Assembly (NCBI RefSeq): GCF_004138125.1
Contig: NZ_RXHS01000007.1
Coordinates: 1 to 64,000 of the forward strand
From: Seramator thermalis
GTDB taxonomy: Bacteria > Bacteroidota > Bacteroidia > Bacteroidales > Dysgonomonadaceae
Direction: 5' to 3'
Length of the DNA: 64,000 bases
The notes under the pieces were generated by a model that was not told the origin of the DNA, ran no database searches, and saw only the letters and a list, made by a program, of their open reading frames with translations. A program made the position numbers and the translations under genes. Shown here one piece after another: positions 54,979 through 60,493 of this stretch. Each line of letters opens with the position of its first letter. Position 1 is the first letter of the stretch.

Positions 54979-55510
54979 TATTAAAATTACATACCGAGTA
55001 TTTTTTCATAACTTTTTTTTCGTTTCAGGTTGCAATTTTTTATCAATAATGAGTAAAAAATACACTTTCATTTATTATTGCGATGCTAAAAGACCGCCAA
55101 AGGCTATCCCCACTTTTAACATTCGGTAAAACTGATCTCTTCTCTATGTACAAAAACACCTAAAACATGTGCAAATATATAACCTTTTTACAAATTGGAA
55201 TCATATCCGTACGATTTTAACATGTTTGGTATGCAAAAGTTCATAATTCGAGACAAATGTTGGCGAATATGCTCAAATAAAAACAATGCGAACAGGAAAT
55301 ATGCAAAGATTGGAATTACGAATTTCGATTCTGTTTATTATTTGCGCTTGTGAGACATTTTGTCTGTACCACTAATAAGAAACTGCACAAGTAATTACTT
55401 ACGCCGGCGGGTGCGGGGATGATCGCATGATAGAAATCTTGCGATAGTAAGTTGAACGTGAGAAATGGGAAGTGAGAAATTGAGAAATGAAGAAATAGGA
55501 ATTAAGACCT

Positions 55511-55631
55511 AAGAATTTACCGTGAATCATTACAAAATTATCTGCGGATATCTGCTTGAAATCTTTTTCTGAACTTTTTCTTGCTGATTGAAGTTTTTTC
55601 TGCGATGATCTGCGTGAACTTTCAAGAGAAA
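55511..55631. repeat. Long inverted repeat, right copy
   Basis: Nearly exact reverse complement of 43382-43503. The similarity continues to about 55720 against 43290-43381, and a further short match near 55830-55870 corresponds to about 43260-43300. The spacer 54979-56314 otherwise shows no gene. Confidence 0.8.
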
Positions 55632-56022
55632 TGGGAAGTGAAAAGTGAAAGGCTAAAAATGGAGGTTGGAGAATGGAGAATGGGAAATAGGGGCGAAAAA
55701 TTTTTTGCCCGTACTTTGAGTCTTAGAGCCTTAGCGGCTATTATTTGCCACGAAGACGAAAAGAAACGAAGTTGGTTTTGTAATGGGCAAAATTATCGTA
55801 ACTCCCCGTGCATTGTCTTTGACTATTTTCATAAAGAATTCATCGGAAAATCACTAAATCATCGAATCGGTCATTTCTGATTTCTCAACTTCCACTATGC
55901 TAATAAGAGACGAAACTAAAATTTTCTCCTAAATGTGGCAAATTTTTTTTTTATTCAGTTAAATAGTTAGTGAAAGCTTACATCAAGTTTGCTATTTTTC
56001 TTCTTTTAAGGCAATTACGGTG

Positions 56023-56084
56023 CAACTCCCAGTCAACTCCCAGTCAACTCCCAGTCAACTCCCAGTCAACTCCCAGTCAACTCC
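56023..56084. repeat. 11-bp tandem repeat, five units plus a partial
   Basis: CAACTCCCAGT is repeated without error at 56023-56077, with a partial unit to 56084. It lies about 230 bp upstream of the pheA-operon promoter. The unit length is not a multiple of three and no open frame crosses it usefully. Confidence 0.95.
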
Positions 56085-56314
56085 ATATAAGCCCCATATA
56101 CCTTTCGCCAAAAATTTGTCATAAATCGAAAAAGAGATAAGTTTTGTAGTTGAAATAAATTGTTGTGTCGAGGGGTCAGCCTATCCCAATATGCTGTCCA
56201 TCGAACTTTGGATAGAAGTTGAATCGGTGAATTCGATAACATTTCGGCTATATACCGAAAGGCTCTTTTACTTTAAACCTATTATTTGTGAAATCAACCA
56301 CATTTTTTTCTCGA

Positions 56315-56348
56315 TTTGATTTTTTTATTCAAAAAAATATTACTTTTG
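56315..56348 (+). promoter_or_regulatory. Promoter of the Phe/Tyr biosynthesis operon
   Basis: TTTG at 56315-56318 and TACTTTTG at 56341-56348 match the Bacteroidetes -33 TTTG and -7 TAnnTTTG elements with a 22-bp spacer. Transcription should begin near 56355, about 20 bases before the leader-peptide ATG. Confidence 0.7.
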
Positions 56349-56376
56349 TAGCGTCATTTCATCGAAAACGAACAAA

Positions 56377-56433
56377 ATGAAACACTCAAGTTTTGCCTAT
56401 TCTTTCTTTTTTTACTTTTACTTTAGCAAGTAG
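56377..56433 (+). CDS. Phe/Tyr-rich leader peptide (pheL-like)
   Basis: The 18-codon frame encodes MKHSSFAYSFFFYFYFSK and ends with TAG. Nine of 18 codons are Phe (six) or Tyr (three), with seven of them in the last eleven codons. It lies between a Bacteroidetes-type promoter and pheA, and is followed at once by sequence that can form alternative hairpins. The peptide resembles E. coli PheL in character and even in its first three residues. It should act as a sensor: ribosomes stall when charged Phe or Tyr tRNA is scarce. It is too short for ordinary gene finders. Confidence 0.8.
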   Translation: MKHSSFAYSFFFYFYFSK

Positions 56434-56438
56434 GAGCG

Positions 56439-56499
56439 GGATTTTATAGGCAAAAATGAAGAAAAAATACTAAACAATCATATTAAGTTCATAAAATCC
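56439..56499 (+). promoter_or_regulatory. Antiterminator helix of the pheA-operon leader
   Basis: GGATTTTAT (56439-56447) is exactly complementary to ATAAAATCC (56491-56499). The first arm lies 5 bases after the leader stop codon, so a ribosome finishing the leader would cover it. A ribosome stalled on the Phe/Tyr codons would leave it free to pair. The second arm is also the 5' side of the terminator, making the two structures exclusive. Confidence 0.75.
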
Positions 56500-56527
56500 T
56501 GTCGCCGATACGATGGGATTTTTTTTT
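56493..56527 (+). terminator. Attenuator terminator before pheA
   Basis: AAAATCC (56493-56499) pairs with GGATTTT (56516-56522); inside, TCG/CGA can pair further. Nine T in a row follow (56519-56527). It ends 24 bp before the pheA ATG, so termination here would switch off the operon. Confidence 0.75.
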
Positions 56528-56551
56528 AAATATACATGGTATAAAATATTT

Positions 56552-57439
56552 ATGAAAAGAGTAGCAATTCAGGGTGGAACGGGTGCATATCACGAAATCG
56601 CTGCCCGCCGTTATTTCGAAGGGGAAGAATTGGAAATCGTGGAATGCGTCACGTTTCGCGATATTTTCGAAGAAGCCAAAAAAGATCCTGCGCTTATTGG
56701 AATTATGGCTATCGAAAATACGATTGCAGGGAGTTTGCTTCCAAATCATGATTTGCTGAAGATGAGCGATCTGCAAATTGCAGGTGAATACAAACTACGC
56801 ATTTCTCATACGTTGGCAGCCCTACCCGGACAATCGATCGATGATATGAGGGAAGTGATGTCGCATCCCATTGCACTGATGCAATGCGAAGATTACTTGG
56901 AAGGGCTTCCGCACGTCAAAATCGTAGAACATGAAGATACGGCTTTGGCGGCCAAAGAGATTCACGATCGTCAATTGCGTGGAGTAGCCGCCATTTGCAG
57001 CAGCCTGGCGGCAGAGATGTATGGACTTGAACCTCTCGCCACAGGCATAGAGACCAACAAGCGTAACTTCACTCGATTCCTTATCCTCGCCCGACCCGAA
57101 ATGTTGCCCGAAGTGCAAAAAGACAATCATATCAATAAGTCGTCGCTCGTTTTTGTTCTTCCGCACAAAGAAGGAAGTCTTTCGCAAGTGTTGTCCGTAC
57201 TTTCGTTTTACGGAATCAATCTCACCCGCATTCAATCGCTTCCCATCATCGGGCGCGAATGGGAATATCAGTTTTATATCGATCTCACCTTTTCCGATTA
57301 CGAACGATATCGTCAGTCGCTCGATGCTATCATGCCGCTTATCGGCGATCTGAAAGTTTTGGGCGAATATCGGGAAGCAAAATATAATATGAATAATAAC
57401 ACAAATTATGAACATGTCGAAGCGAATCGAACCGTCTGA
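56552..57439 (+). CDS. pheA: Prephenate dehydratase
   Basis: The ATG at 56552 (295 residues, MKRVAIQGGTGAYHEIAARR) is chosen because the upstream extension runs back into the attenuator hairpin. The PDT domain has the catalytic NKRNFTRFLIL at about residues 168-178. A C-terminal ACT domain begins at SSLVFVLPHKEGSLSQVL; its usual ESRP motif appears as QSLP, so Phe binding may differ. It converts prephenate to phenylpyruvate. It overlaps the aminotransferase start and heads the operon. Confidence 0.93.
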   Translation: MKRVAIQGGTGAYHEIAARRYFEGEELEIVECVTFRDIFEEAKKDPALIGIMAIENTIAGSLLPNHDLLKMSDLQIAGEYKLRISHTLAALPGQSIDDMREVMSHPIALMQCEDYLEGLPHVKIVEHEDTALAAKEIHDRQLRGVAAICSSLAAEMYGLEPLATGIETNKRNFTRFLILARPEMLPEVQKDNHINKSSLVFVLPHKEGSLSQVLSVLSFYGINLTRIQSLPIIGREWEYQFYIDLTFSDYERYRQSLDAIMPLIGDLKVLGEYREAKYNMNNNTNYEHVEANRTV

Positions 57440-58592
57440 AAATGTAAAAAAAATATCGGAATACTATTTTTCAGTGAAATTGGCCGAAGTGGCACAGATG
57501 AATGCGCAAGGTATGGATGTCATCAACTTGGCCGTCGGAAGTCCCGATCAGCCACCATCAGAAGCCACCATTGAAGCGCTGTGCGAAAGCGCACATCAAC
57601 CCGATGCGCACGGTTATCAGTCCTATAACGGACTTCCTGCTCTACGGCAGGCTTTTGCCGATTGGTACAAGCGCTATTTTCATGTCGATCTTACAACGGA
57701 CGAAATACTGCCGCTGATCGGTTCCAAAGAAGGCATTCTGCATATATCGCTCACGTTTCTCAATCCGGGTGATGGTGTGTTGGTGCCAAATCCCGGTTAT
57801 CCTACTTACACTTCGGTATCTGAACTTGTAGGTGCGAATGTCATTCATTATGATTTGATGGAAAACAATCATTGGCAGCCCGATTTCGATGCGCTCGAAC
57901 GGTTGGATCTTTCGAATGTAAAACTCATGTGGGTCAATTATCCCAACATGCCTACCGGTGCAAGCGCTTCGCCACAGCTTTTCGAAAGACTTGTCGCTTT
58001 TGGTAAAAAACATCAAATCATCATTTGCCACGACAATCCTTACAGTTTTATCCTCAACGAACATCCCGAGAGTATTTTATCTGCCGACGGCGCAAAAGAT
58101 ATTTGTATCGAACTCAATTCGATGAGTAAGTCACACAATATGCCCGGTTGGCGTATGGGAATGCTTGCATCGAATCCGCAATTCGTGAAATGGATTTTGC
58201 GCGAAAAAAGCAATATAGACAATGGACAGTTCAAACCCATGCAGGTGGCTACTATTGCCGCTCTCGGAAATCCCCCCGAATGGTATGTGCGGATGAACAA
58301 GCTTTATGCCGAACGGCGTGTAGTGGCCGAACGCATTATGGATTTGCTCGGCTGCACATACGATAAAAATCAGGTTGGTCTTTTTCTTTGGGCAAAAATG
58401 AAGGATGATGAGGCGAGCAGCGAGCAATTGATTAACGATATTTTGCGTAATGCTCACGTTTTTATTACGCCGGGATTTATTTTCGGAAGCAATGGCAGTC
58501 GATATATCCGCATTTCACTTGGAGTTTCCAAAGAAAGAATGGAAGAGGCTTATCGTCGAATCGAAACTTATCTCAACAAAAAAGACAAATAA
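57414..58592 (+). CDS. Class I/II aminotransferase, probably aromatic or aspartate type
   Basis: The 392-residue PLP enzyme starts at the second ATG (57414) inside the end of pheA; another ATG is at 57408. PLP-binding features are NYPNMPTGASA (Asn), the catalytic Lys in ELNSMSKSHNMPGWRMG and the C-terminal Arg in YIRISLGVSKE. Its place between pheA and the DAHP synthase suggests it aminates phenylpyruvate and hydroxyphenylpyruvate to Phe and Tyr. Sequence alone would also allow aspartate or LL-DAP-type activity. Confidence 0.9.
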   Translation: MSKRIEPSENVKKISEYYFSVKLAEVAQMNAQGMDVINLAVGSPDQPPSEATIEALCESAHQPDAHGYQSYNGLPALRQAFADWYKRYFHVDLTTDEILPLIGSKEGILHISLTFLNPGDGVLVPNPGYPTYTSVSELVGANVIHYDLMENNHWQPDFDALERLDLSNVKLMWVNYPNMPTGASASPQLFERLVAFGKKHQIIICHDNPYSFILNEHPESILSADGAKDICIELNSMSKSHNMPGWRMGMLASNPQFVKWILREKSNIDNGQFKPMQVATIAALGNPPEWYVRMNKLYAERRVVAERIMDLLGCTYDKNQVGLFLWAKMKDDEASSEQLINDILRNAHVFITPGFIFGSNGSRYIRISLGVSKERMEEAYRRIETYLNKKDK

Positions 58593-58605: not shown

Positions 58606-59685
58606 ATGGAATTTTCATCAATTTTATTGCCCGGTATCGAGGACAAACGTCCGTTTGTGATATCGGGGCCATGTAGCGCCGAAACGGAGGAGCAAGTGAT
58701 GGCAACGGCCATCGATTTAGCAAATCGGGGCATAAAGGTTTTTCGGGCAGGTGTTTGGAAACCACGCACCAAACCGGGTGGCTTCGAGGGCGTTGGGAGT
58801 CCTGCTCTGAAATGGCTTCAGCGTGTGAAACGCGAAACCGGAATGTACACTGCCGTTGAAGTGGCTACCGAAAAACATGTGTACGAGGCATTGAAATATG
58901 GCGTTGATATGCTTTGGATCGGAGCTCGAACAACTGCCAATCCGTTTGCGGTGCAGGAAATTGCCGATACGTTGCGTGGAACCGACATCCCGGTTCTGAT
59001 TAAGAATCCCGTAAATCCCGATTTGGAGCTTTGGATTGGTGCGCTGGAACGACTGTATAACGTCGGTATTACTCGGTTGGGCGCTATTCATCGTGGGTTC
59101 AGCTCCTCGGATAAAAGCATATATCGAAATATGCCTCAATGGCATATTCCCATCGAGTTGCAGCGACGTTTTCCCGAATTGCCTGTCATTTGCGATCCAA
59201 GCCACATGGGCGGACGTCGCGATATGATTTTCAAACTGAGTCAACAGGCAATGGATTTGAATTTTTACGGACTGATCATCGAGTCGCATTGCACTCCTGA
59301 TGAGGCCTGGAGCGATAAGGATCAGCAAATTACGCCAAAAACGCTCGCGGAAATTCTGAGTTCGTTGGTAATTCGTGAAAAAGGACAAACGACGGAAGAT
59401 CTTTCGGCTTTGCGCCAGCAAATAGATGAGATCGATAATCAGATGCTTGAGTTGTTATCGAAACGTATGCGTGTTTCGCGCGAAATCGGGCAGTATAAAC
59501 TCGAACACGATATGGCGGTTTTGCAGACACGCCGTTATGACGATATTCTGACCGATCGTGCCCGTCAGGCTTCCCGTCTTGGAATGTCGGAGGAGTTTGT
59601 TGTCAAAATTCTGGAAGCTACGCACGAGGAATCGGTGCGTCAACAGCTCGAAATCATGGAAAAGGCAGGGAAAAACAATCGTTGA
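58606..59685 (+). CDS. Bifunctional 3-deoxy-7-phosphoheptulonate synthase / chorismate mutase
   Basis: The ATG at 58606 gives 359 residues. Residues about 1-255 are a KDO8P-type DAHP synthase (RPFVISGPCSAETEEQV, then GVWKPRTKPGGFEGVG and CDPSHMGG). Residues about 270-350 are an AroQ chorismate mutase (LRQQIDEIDNQMLELLSKRM). The first domain makes the first shikimate-pathway intermediate; the second makes prephenate for pheA and tyrA on either side. The fusion is typical of Bacteroidetes. The longer upstream frame overlaps the aminotransferase gene and is not used. Confidence 0.95.
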   Translation: MEFSSILLPGIEDKRPFVISGPCSAETEEQVMATAIDLANRGIKVFRAGVWKPRTKPGGFEGVGSPALKWLQRVKRETGMYTAVEVATEKHVYEALKYGVDMLWIGARTTANPFAVQEIADTLRGTDIPVLIKNPVNPDLELWIGALERLYNVGITRLGAIHRGFSSSDKSIYRNMPQWHIPIELQRRFPELPVICDPSHMGGRRDMIFKLSQQAMDLNFYGLIIESHCTPDEAWSDKDQQITPKTLAEILSSLVIREKGQTTEDLSALRQQIDEIDNQMLELLSKRMRVSREIGQYKLEHDMAVLQTRRYDDILTDRARQASRLGMSEEFVVKILEATHEESVRQQLEIMEKAGKNNR

Positions 59686-59719: not shown

Positions 59720-60493
59720 ATGAAGATATTGATTCTTGGAGCCGGCAAAATGGGATCGTTTTTTGCCGATGTGCTCAGTTTCGATCACGAAGTCGCGATC
59801 CTCGATACCGATCCGCAGAAATTGCGCTTTACGTATAACACCGTCCGAATGTCTAATCCGGAAGAAGTTCGGGATTTCGCCCCTGAAATGGTGATTAATG
59901 CCGTAACGCTGAAATATACACTCGATGCGTTTCATAATATTCTGCCGTATATATCCGAGGCATGCATCCTGAGCGATATCGCCTCCGTGAAAACCGGGCT
60001 GGATGCGTTTTATCGCGATTCGAAACATCCTTTTGTTTCTTCGCATCCCATGTTTGGCCCCACCTTCGCCAGCTTGGGCGATTTAAGTTCCGAAAATGCA
60101 ATTATTATCAAGGAGTCGTCGCATTTGGGAAAGGTGTTTTTCAGAGATTTATATTCGAAACTGAAACTCAATATTTGCGAATATTCGTTTGATGAACACG
60201 ACAAAACCATTGCCTATTCGCTTTCAATTCCGTTTGCCTCTACGTTGGTGTTTGCTTCGGTAATGAAGCATCAGGAAGCTCCCGGAACTACTTTCAAAAA
60301 ACACATGAATATTGCTCGCGGATTGTTGTCGGAGGACGATTTTCTGTTAACCGAAATTCTGTTCAATCCCTACACCCCTGCACAATTGATGCAAATTCGC
60401 GAAAAACTGAAAGAATTGCTCGGCATTATCGAAGCGAAGGATAGCGAAAAAATGAAAGCTTTTCTTACGCAGGTAAGAAAAAATATAGAATAA
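59720..60493 (+). CDS. tyrA: Prephenate dehydrogenase
   Basis: This 257-residue NAD(P) enzyme has a Rossmann start MKILILGAGKMGSFFADVLS and LSDIASVKTGLDAF, followed by SSHPMFGPTFASLG with the catalytic His. It converts prephenate to hydroxyphenylpyruvate for Tyr. There is no C-terminal ACT domain. It is the last gene of the attenuator-controlled operon, 34 bp after the DAHP synthase gene. Confidence 0.93.
   Translation: MKILILGAGKMGSFFADVLSFDHEVAILDTDPQKLRFTYNTVRMSNPEEVRDFAPEMVINAVTLKYTLDAFHNILPYISEACILSDIASVKTGLDAFYRDSKHPFVSSHPMFGPTFASLGDLSSENAIIIKESSHLGKVFFRDLYSKLKLNICEYSFDEHDKTIAYSLSIPFASTLVFASVMKHQEAPGTTFKKHMNIARGLLSEDDFLLTEILFNPYTPAQLMQIREKLKELLGIIEAKDSEKMKAFLTQVRKNIE

Follow-up and report, generated by a model that had tools for sequence, protein, structure and literature searches.

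The window analysed here, a 64,000-nucleotide (nt) stretch of DNA from Seramator thermalis (contig NZ_RXHS01000007.1, positions 1 to 64,000), carries a putative operon of four genes preceded by a leader region. The features of the locus are as follows.

56315..56348, + strand: putative promoter of the Bacteroides −33/−7 type, TTTG (56315–56318) and TACTTTTG (56341–56348)
56377..56433, + strand: leader open reading frame (ORF) MKHSSFAYSFFFYFYFSK with nine putative Phe/Tyr sensor codons, called by reading and conservation
56391..56417, + strand: segment 1, inside the leader ORF, called by fold and covariation
56436..56455, + strand: segment 2, with the 5′ arm of the putative antiterminator (56436–56447) and a part that pairs with segment 1 (56446–56455)
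56491..56502, + strand: segment 3, 3′ arm of the putative antiterminator, of which 56493–56502 is shared with the 5′ arm of the terminator
56493..56527, + strand: predicted intrinsic terminator (3:4 helix), stem 56493–56522 and T run 56519–56527
56552..57439, + strand: pheA, prephenate dehydratase, with a PDT domain and an ACT domain that falls under the Pfam cut-off
57408..58592, + strand: class I/II aminotransferase, overlapping pheA
58606..59685, + strand: DAHP synthase/chorismate mutase fusion (mechanical ORF from 58450, probable start at 58606)
59720..60493, + strand: tyrA-like prephenate dehydrogenase, the last gene ahead of a convergent gene

Given this gene set (pheA, aminotransferase, DAHP synthase–chorismate mutase and tyrA-like), the operon would make both Phe and Tyr, and the codons that fill the leader fit it, as a preliminary description of this DNA had proposed. 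Direct reading bore out the elements of that description, exact to the base. The leader ORF runs from the ATG at 56377 to the stop codon at 56431–56433, 118 nt upstream of pheA, and nine of its 18 residues are Phe or Tyr. Five bases past the stop (56434–56438) begins the first arm of a 9-base-pair (bp) helix, formed by GGATTTTAT (56439–56447) and ATAAAATCC (56491–56499), which can be extended to 12 pairs, two of them G–U (56436–56447 with 56491–56502). This 2:3 helix and the terminator are mutually exclusive, sharing the arm 56493–56502; the terminator stem has 12 pairs and a 6-nt loop, and its run of nine T ends 24 bases before the pheA ATG (56552). Upstream of the leader, TTTG and TACTTTTG match what we take to be the Bacteroides −33/−7 promoter consensus. 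The preliminary description had also likened the arrangement to E. coli pheL and trpL; the likeness stood, but that account had missed a 1:2 helix, in which 56391–56400 pairs with 56446–56455 and an inner part (56404–56407 and 56409–56417) pairs with 56428–56441. With this helix present, the layout is the full trpL/pheL one. Separately, the intergenic DNA upstream of the promoter holds about five direct copies of the 11-base unit aactcccagtc (56021–56085).

The predicted folds of the leader RNA depend on which segments are available. The minimum-energy fold of the whole leader combines the 1:2 helix (56391–56417 with 56428–56455) with the terminator, and none of 200 shuffled sequences folds as well. 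Without segment 1 the antiterminator becomes the best fold (−14.9 kcal/mol), and its duplex has a z score of −3.9, with none of 100 shuffles equalling it; when only segments 3 and 4 are folded, the terminator forms (−13.2 kcal/mol, z −4.0, 0 of 200 shuffles as good). The trpL/pheL model has three states, in which the leader is untranslated, occupied by a stalled ribosome or occupied by a ribosome at the stop codon, and the three predicted folds correspond to these states. Folded as one piece, 56436–56529 is not unusual (z −1.2, 29 of 200 shuffles as good), and a generic terminator scan of 55500–57500 returned two sites versus 1.8 in shuffles.

We collected pheA loci from three overlapping genome sets, namely 61 relatives (46 matched by the pheA query), 247 Bacteroidales genomes (111 matched) and 148 Bacteroidia genomes (43 matched); those that gave no match, such as 136 of the 247 Bacteroidales genomes, are uninformative on the presence of a leader. 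The contigs of named genomes were also searched with pheA, and 80 of 422 loci were kept. In pheA the genome of the window comes nearest, among named relatives, to a Dysgonamonadaceae MAG (95% identity) and next to Seramator thermalis (83%), which puts it in family Dysgonomonadaceae of Bacteroidales. The near set contains 113 loci after removal of duplicates among 137, including 27 (L112–L138) from the order-level search; near-copies remain in it, and 111 loci have at least 350 nt upstream. The far set contains 77 loci (L139–L215, 76 usable) and the class set 38, of which 37 lie outside Bacteroidales.

A leader rich in aromatic codons is conserved across these loci. Frames of up to 45 codons with at least seven Phe/Tyr in 12 residues precede pheA in 109 of the 111 near and 65 of the 76 far loci, compared with 1.9% and 1.4% of dinucleotide shuffles, and with 5 of 111 and 2 of 76 reverse strands, respectively. 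Outside Bacteroidales, 17 of 37 loci reach this density and six more reach six in 12. Within the F/Y-rich stretch, codons beginning TT are almost exclusively TTY (632 near and 346 far) and not TTR (0 and 2); breaking ties the opposite way gives 631 and 345 against 0 and 5. Phe and Tyr residues in the near set number 1,010 in frame 0 versus 373 and 337 in the other two frames, and Leu shows the reverse trend, with 2 in frame 0 versus 237 and 611. What is conserved is the reading frame of the leader. The promoter box is conserved as well: the 90 nt that precede the leader contain TAnnTTTG in 105 of 109 loci of the near set and 47 of 65 of the far set, versus 11% and 6% of shuffles. Some leaders also contain Trp codons (for example, L012, L035 and L190; 17 of 1,308 codons near and 17 of 778 far), perhaps because the DAHP synthase of the operon also feeds Trp synthesis.

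A terminator follows the leader in 171 of the 174 loci that have one. By a common criterion, the complete unit of leader plus terminator occurs at 197 of 225 Bacteroidia pheA loci (107/111 near, 67/76 far and 23/38 class), against none in 450 shuffles and a single one in 225 reverse strands; at 28 of the 225 loci no unit was found by this criterion. The three leaders lacking a called terminator proved on inspection to have a hairpin with an interrupted T tail (L127 and L128) or two units (L131). No leader was called at 16 of 190 Bacteroidales loci. Of these, three (L006, L089 and L151) had at most 61 nt upstream; L163, L170, L180 and L181 carry, by eye, weaker F/Y-rich frames and a terminator; L021 retains its attenuator intact, moved away from pheA by a group II intron; and at eight loci (L135, L141, L144, L197 and L207–L210) we saw nothing leader-like. 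L207, L208 and L209 are the loci of all three genomes of family label f69 that have a pheA locus, and in each of them both leader and terminator are absent before pheA: the f69 lineage lost, or never had, this element.

A covariance model built from an alignment of near-set leaders (A1, described below) matched 43 of 61 genomes, with a single match in the genome of the window, at its pheA leader. Thirty-six matches have E < 1e-13; for 35 of them a pheA match follows no more than 200 nt downstream, and the remaining one, in genome G036, is displaced from pheA by an intron. At that locus (L310, between 1045 and 2968) the Phe/Tyr attenuator is intact and is separated from pheA by a group II intron that carries its reverse transcriptase and begins shortly past the terminator. 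The weak matches include a Bacteroid-trp element (G015:C30, E 1e-4) and a site in G011 with the frame MNNQYIAILVISILLLEDFGG.

The helices are also conserved, and the relatives bear out the expectation that the leader frame and both alternative helices would be kept, with compensatory changes in both. Compared with 100 shuffles, the antiterminator duplex comes out better than 95 or more of them in 153 of 171 loci (near set, 103 of 106; far set, 50 of 65). For the 1:2 duplex the same holds in 91 of 103 near but only 27 of 60 far loci, so that it is weak at a distance; this test left out 8 of the 171 loci, in which the best arm 2 lies more than 30 nt past the stop. Alignment A1 consists of 43 sequences, obtained by thinning 102 near regions of 110–190 nt to 44 (below 85% similarity) and dropping L040, whose start was misassigned. 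In A1, 86.6% (2:3), 96.9% (3:4) and 91.0% (1:2) of cells are paired, compared with 35–63% in slid controls. Doubly changed cells number 38 in 2:3, 47 in 3:4 and 31 in 1:2 versus shuffled means of 11.4, 13.7 and 12.5, values reached by none of 500 shuffles in each case, although the relatedness of the sequences alone can beat such shuffles. Two other measures are less decisive: as many pairs changed on both sides were seen in 47, 6 and 27 of 500 shuffles (2:3, 3:4 and 1:2), and as many further pair types in 19, 74 and 15.

Spacing is similarly constrained. From the first base of the last Phe/Tyr codon to arm 2 the median distance is 13 nt in the near set (10th–90th percentile, 12–15) and 14 nt in the far set (11–18), measured in the 101 of 106 near and 47 of 65 far loci in which the antiterminator ranks at most 5 of 100, arm 2 lies no more than 40 nt from the stop and an F/Y codon is usable. 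Since only F/Y codons at least 9 nt upstream of arm 2 entered the measurement, it is the narrow spread at the upper end that is informative. All 101 near loci and 46 of the 47 far ones have the start of arm 2 at most 10 nt past the first base of the stop codon, with a median of 4 nt after that base in the near set and 9 nt before it in the far set; in many distant loci the leader frame extends into arm 2, which serves the same end. A ribosome covers about 12 nt beyond the first base of the codon in its A site. With this footprint and spacing, a ribosome at the last sensor codon would leave arm 2 free, and one at the stop codon would cover it.

The locus thus combines the hallmarks of an attenuator: a leader rich in codons for the products, a terminator before the first gene, a conserved antiterminator that excludes it, a 1:2 helix that involves the leader codons, and spacing compatible with stalling. 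Given the elements read in the sequence, how they are conserved, covary and are spaced, and the folds predicted for them, we consider it highly probable that the pheA leader is a classical ribosome-mediated transcription attenuator, which would sense charged tRNA-Phe and tRNA-Tyr and control the pheA–aminotransferase–aroF/CM–tyrA operon. We infer the following course of events. Transcription would begin just upstream of the leader, which would then be translated. When Phe and Tyr are plentiful, the ribosome would reach the stop codon (56431–56433) and cover the core of segment 2 (approximately 56436–56443); segment 3 would then pair with segment 4, and RNA polymerase would halt at the T run (56519–56527). 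When Phe-tRNA or Tyr-tRNA is short, the ribosome would stall in the FFFYFYF tract and cover segment 1, leaving free segment 2, whose start is 14 nt downstream of position 56422, where the last Phe codon begins; segment 2 would pair with segment 3, allowing read-through into pheA. If the leader were not translated, the 1:2 and 3:4 helices would both form and transcription would stop. In Bacteroidota, transcription and translation are not known to be coupled.

Other readings of the same elements account for them less well. A chance hairpin next to a chance F-rich frame deserves a thought in AT-rich DNA, which yields Phe/Tyr codons so readily that 8.5% of near-set shuffles hold a frame with at least six in 12, but this has a negligible probability, given the near-absence of the complete unit from shuffled and reverse-strand controls (0/450 and 1/225, against 197/225 real loci) and the covariation in three helices; conservation across pheA loci rules out a chance origin. 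A more substantial proposal is that the helices are real and are switched by a protein or small molecule binding the leader RNA, as in TRAP-like, T-box or riboswitch control, with the ORF a by-product of a pyrimidine-rich segment 1. Segment 1 is indeed pyrimidine-rich and its partner, segment 2, purine-rich, and RNA pairing thus accounts for some of the conservation of segment 1. Such a switch would nevertheless leave unexplained why TTN codons in frame are hardly ever TTR (0 of 632 in the near set and 2 of 348 in the far set, or 0 of 631 and 5 of 350 with the other tie-break) while Leu is abundant out of frame, why richness in Phe and Tyr is kept in distant loci in which the nucleotide sequence has changed, and why arm 2 keeps its distance from the last sensor codon; nor does the window match any T-box or riboswitch in Rfam. 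We therefore judge it improbable.

The leader ORF could instead act by translational coupling, Rho-dependent control or a peptide working in trans, and not through the choice of terminator. PMC4833913 proposes reinitiation at leader ORFs near a gene, with a peak at 11–14 bp in Bacteroidetes, and a trans-acting leader peptide is reported for another system in PMC7298713. At the present locus the stop codon, 118 nt from pheA, lies too far upstream for the reinitiation model, the peptide diverges outside the F/Y tract, and the leader is followed by a terminator with its T run in 171 of 174 loci, all of which make this reading less probable still. Ribosome-mediated attenuation remains by far our preferred explanation.

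In a subset of genomes, two complete Phe/Tyr leader-plus-terminator units stand in a row within 500 nt upstream of pheA. This arrangement was found at 21 of the 225 loci, under 15 family labels (L112, L120, L122, L123, L138, L142, L154, L157, L159, L184, L187, L188, L191, L194, L198, L199, L200, L203, L212, L229 and L255), and by eye also at L118, L131 and L183. Sought up to 60 nt from the leader, the box TAnnTTTG is present at 14 of 21 first units, 0 of 21 second units and 149 of 176 single leaders; with a promoter box at first leaders and at no second leader, both units seem to be on one transcript. In a region starting at the end of the F/Y tract, the antiterminator of the second unit itself ranks at most 10 of 200 in 18 of the 21 loci, the exceptions being L154, L157 and L191. 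Run on 33 chosen loci, the covariance model gave second sense matches in L212, L112, L118, L138, L122, L187, L120 and L123 (E 3e-5 to 0.05), and antisense matches to the same hairpins reach E 1e-4 to 0.005 (L150, L130 and L120), so that only the first two or three of the eight second-unit matches carry weight alone.

A rapidly built pheA tree comprised 71 rows, of which 23 are tandem (the 21 plus L118 and L131), 45 single and 3 without a called unit. On it the label needs at least nine changes, eight of them forced by starred branches, versus 19.7 for shuffled labels; long branches make some placements unsure, and gain and loss of the tandem form look alike. Of the 115 far and class loci the tree includes 40, and 16 of these were chosen because they are tandem.

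Leaders of other specificities accompany other amino acid operons. RF01692 (Bacteroid-trp, the Bacteroidete tryptophan peptide leader RNA), listed for Bacteroidetes in Weinberg 2010 (PMC2864571), matches 13 of the 31 genomes searched, nine of them over the cut-off, and at its match in all ten loci fetched (L216–L225) there is a leader with a WW or WWW run. Upstream of hisG, His-rich candidate leader frames (at least four His in ten residues) occur, by plain count, in 17 of 18 loci (L264–L281); one of them lies in the genome of the window (L267, G000), with the frame MKANRIHHHHFQTCGQAS, and the remaining locus, L280, has none within 600 nt upstream. At ilvD, 7 of 20 loci (L285, L286, L291, L293, L296, L297 and L298) have frames rich in Ile, Leu and Val upstream, for example MKNLLNIVLVVVVVISEMK, again by plain count, and a further such frame is found at L311:280–345. 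Their composition makes it likely that these frames are branched-chain leaders; none was seen upstream of ilvD in the genome of the window.

On balance we favour, with some reserve, a broader reading in which ribosome-mediated attenuation is, throughout Bacteroidia, the standard way of controlling amino acid operons, and in which a second complete Phe/Tyr attenuator, served by the promoter of the first, has come or gone repeatedly ahead of pheA in many lineages. The leaders that count towards it are the Phe/Tyr leader, the Trp, His and probable branched-chain leaders of relatives, and the His leader in the genome of the window. If this reading is right, RNA polymerase at tandem loci must pass two independent starvation checks, the second of which would make the switch steeper and less leaky. 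What a second, like attenuator adds is a question for which the tandem forms are a natural experiment. The broader reading would also imply tight transcription–translation coupling near the 5′ end in Bacteroidota. A working ribosome-mediated attenuator needs a ribosome close behind RNA polymerase, and the leader could therefore serve as a natural reporter for coupling in this phylum, which largely lacks Shine–Dalgarno initiation and in which, to go by the title of one paper cited in PMC13009471, the anti-Shine–Dalgarno is reportedly sequestered. The regulation of amino acid synthesis in Bacteroidota is, to our knowledge, little described, and this element provides the phylum with a specific candidate for the regulation of Phe and Tyr synthesis, one that is widely conserved and absent from Rfam.

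The element very probably represents, as judged from sequence, an attenuator of the classical kind that is widespread in Bacteroidia and has no Rfam family. No T-box or riboswitch family of Rfam reaches its gathering score in the window, which rejects such an identity, and Rfam holds no family that matches the pheA leader of the window. Membership of RF01859 (Phe_leader), which we take to be the phenylalanine leader peptide of enterobacterial pheL, was rejected at 21 bits against a cut-off of 55 (E 0.24; 16.6 for the opposite strand), and that of Bacteroid-trp was rejected because neither the window nor its genome holds a match (cut-off 49 bits). A 2010 article by Lopatovskaya, Seliverstov and Lyubetsky (Mol Biol 44:128), cited in PMC4833913, may list attenuators of Bacteroidetes, so that a prior description is possible. 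The preliminary description knew of no described case for this operon in Bacteroidetes. It needs correcting in that leader-peptide attenuation is on record in the phylum, in RF01692 and in PMC9723704; for Bacteroidales, we found in the open-licence literature no description of a pheA attenuator, its helices, covariation or tandem forms, the nearest being PMC9723704.

The 2021 study of Flavobacterium psychrophilum (PMC9723704) presents strong clues for leader-peptide attenuation upstream of amino acid operons, and describes 5′ elements upstream of pheA and hisG that are conserved in Flavobacteriaceae and lack an Rfam match. Its pheA element comes from the same phylum and precedes the same gene as that of the window, but in the text available it appears without leader sequence, helices or tandem units and is not outright called a leader-peptide case. 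The kind of regulator is thus already known, and so, probably, is a related element for pheA in another lineage. Bacteroid-trp is likewise a leader-peptide attenuator of the same phylum, and differs in its amino acid and its operon. Phe_leader works in a similar way, with a leader peptide rich in Phe, helices that exclude each other and a terminator ahead of pheA, whereas the leader of the window mixes in Tyr codons and its operon would make Tyr as well. For the tandem form, the Salmonella mgtCBR operon (PMC3641672) provides a known case of tandem attenuators, with two short leader ORFs in one long 5′ leader under attenuation control. That operon serves virulence and Mg2+ transport, whereas the pheA tandems carry Phe/Tyr leaders in both units and precede one biosynthetic operon.
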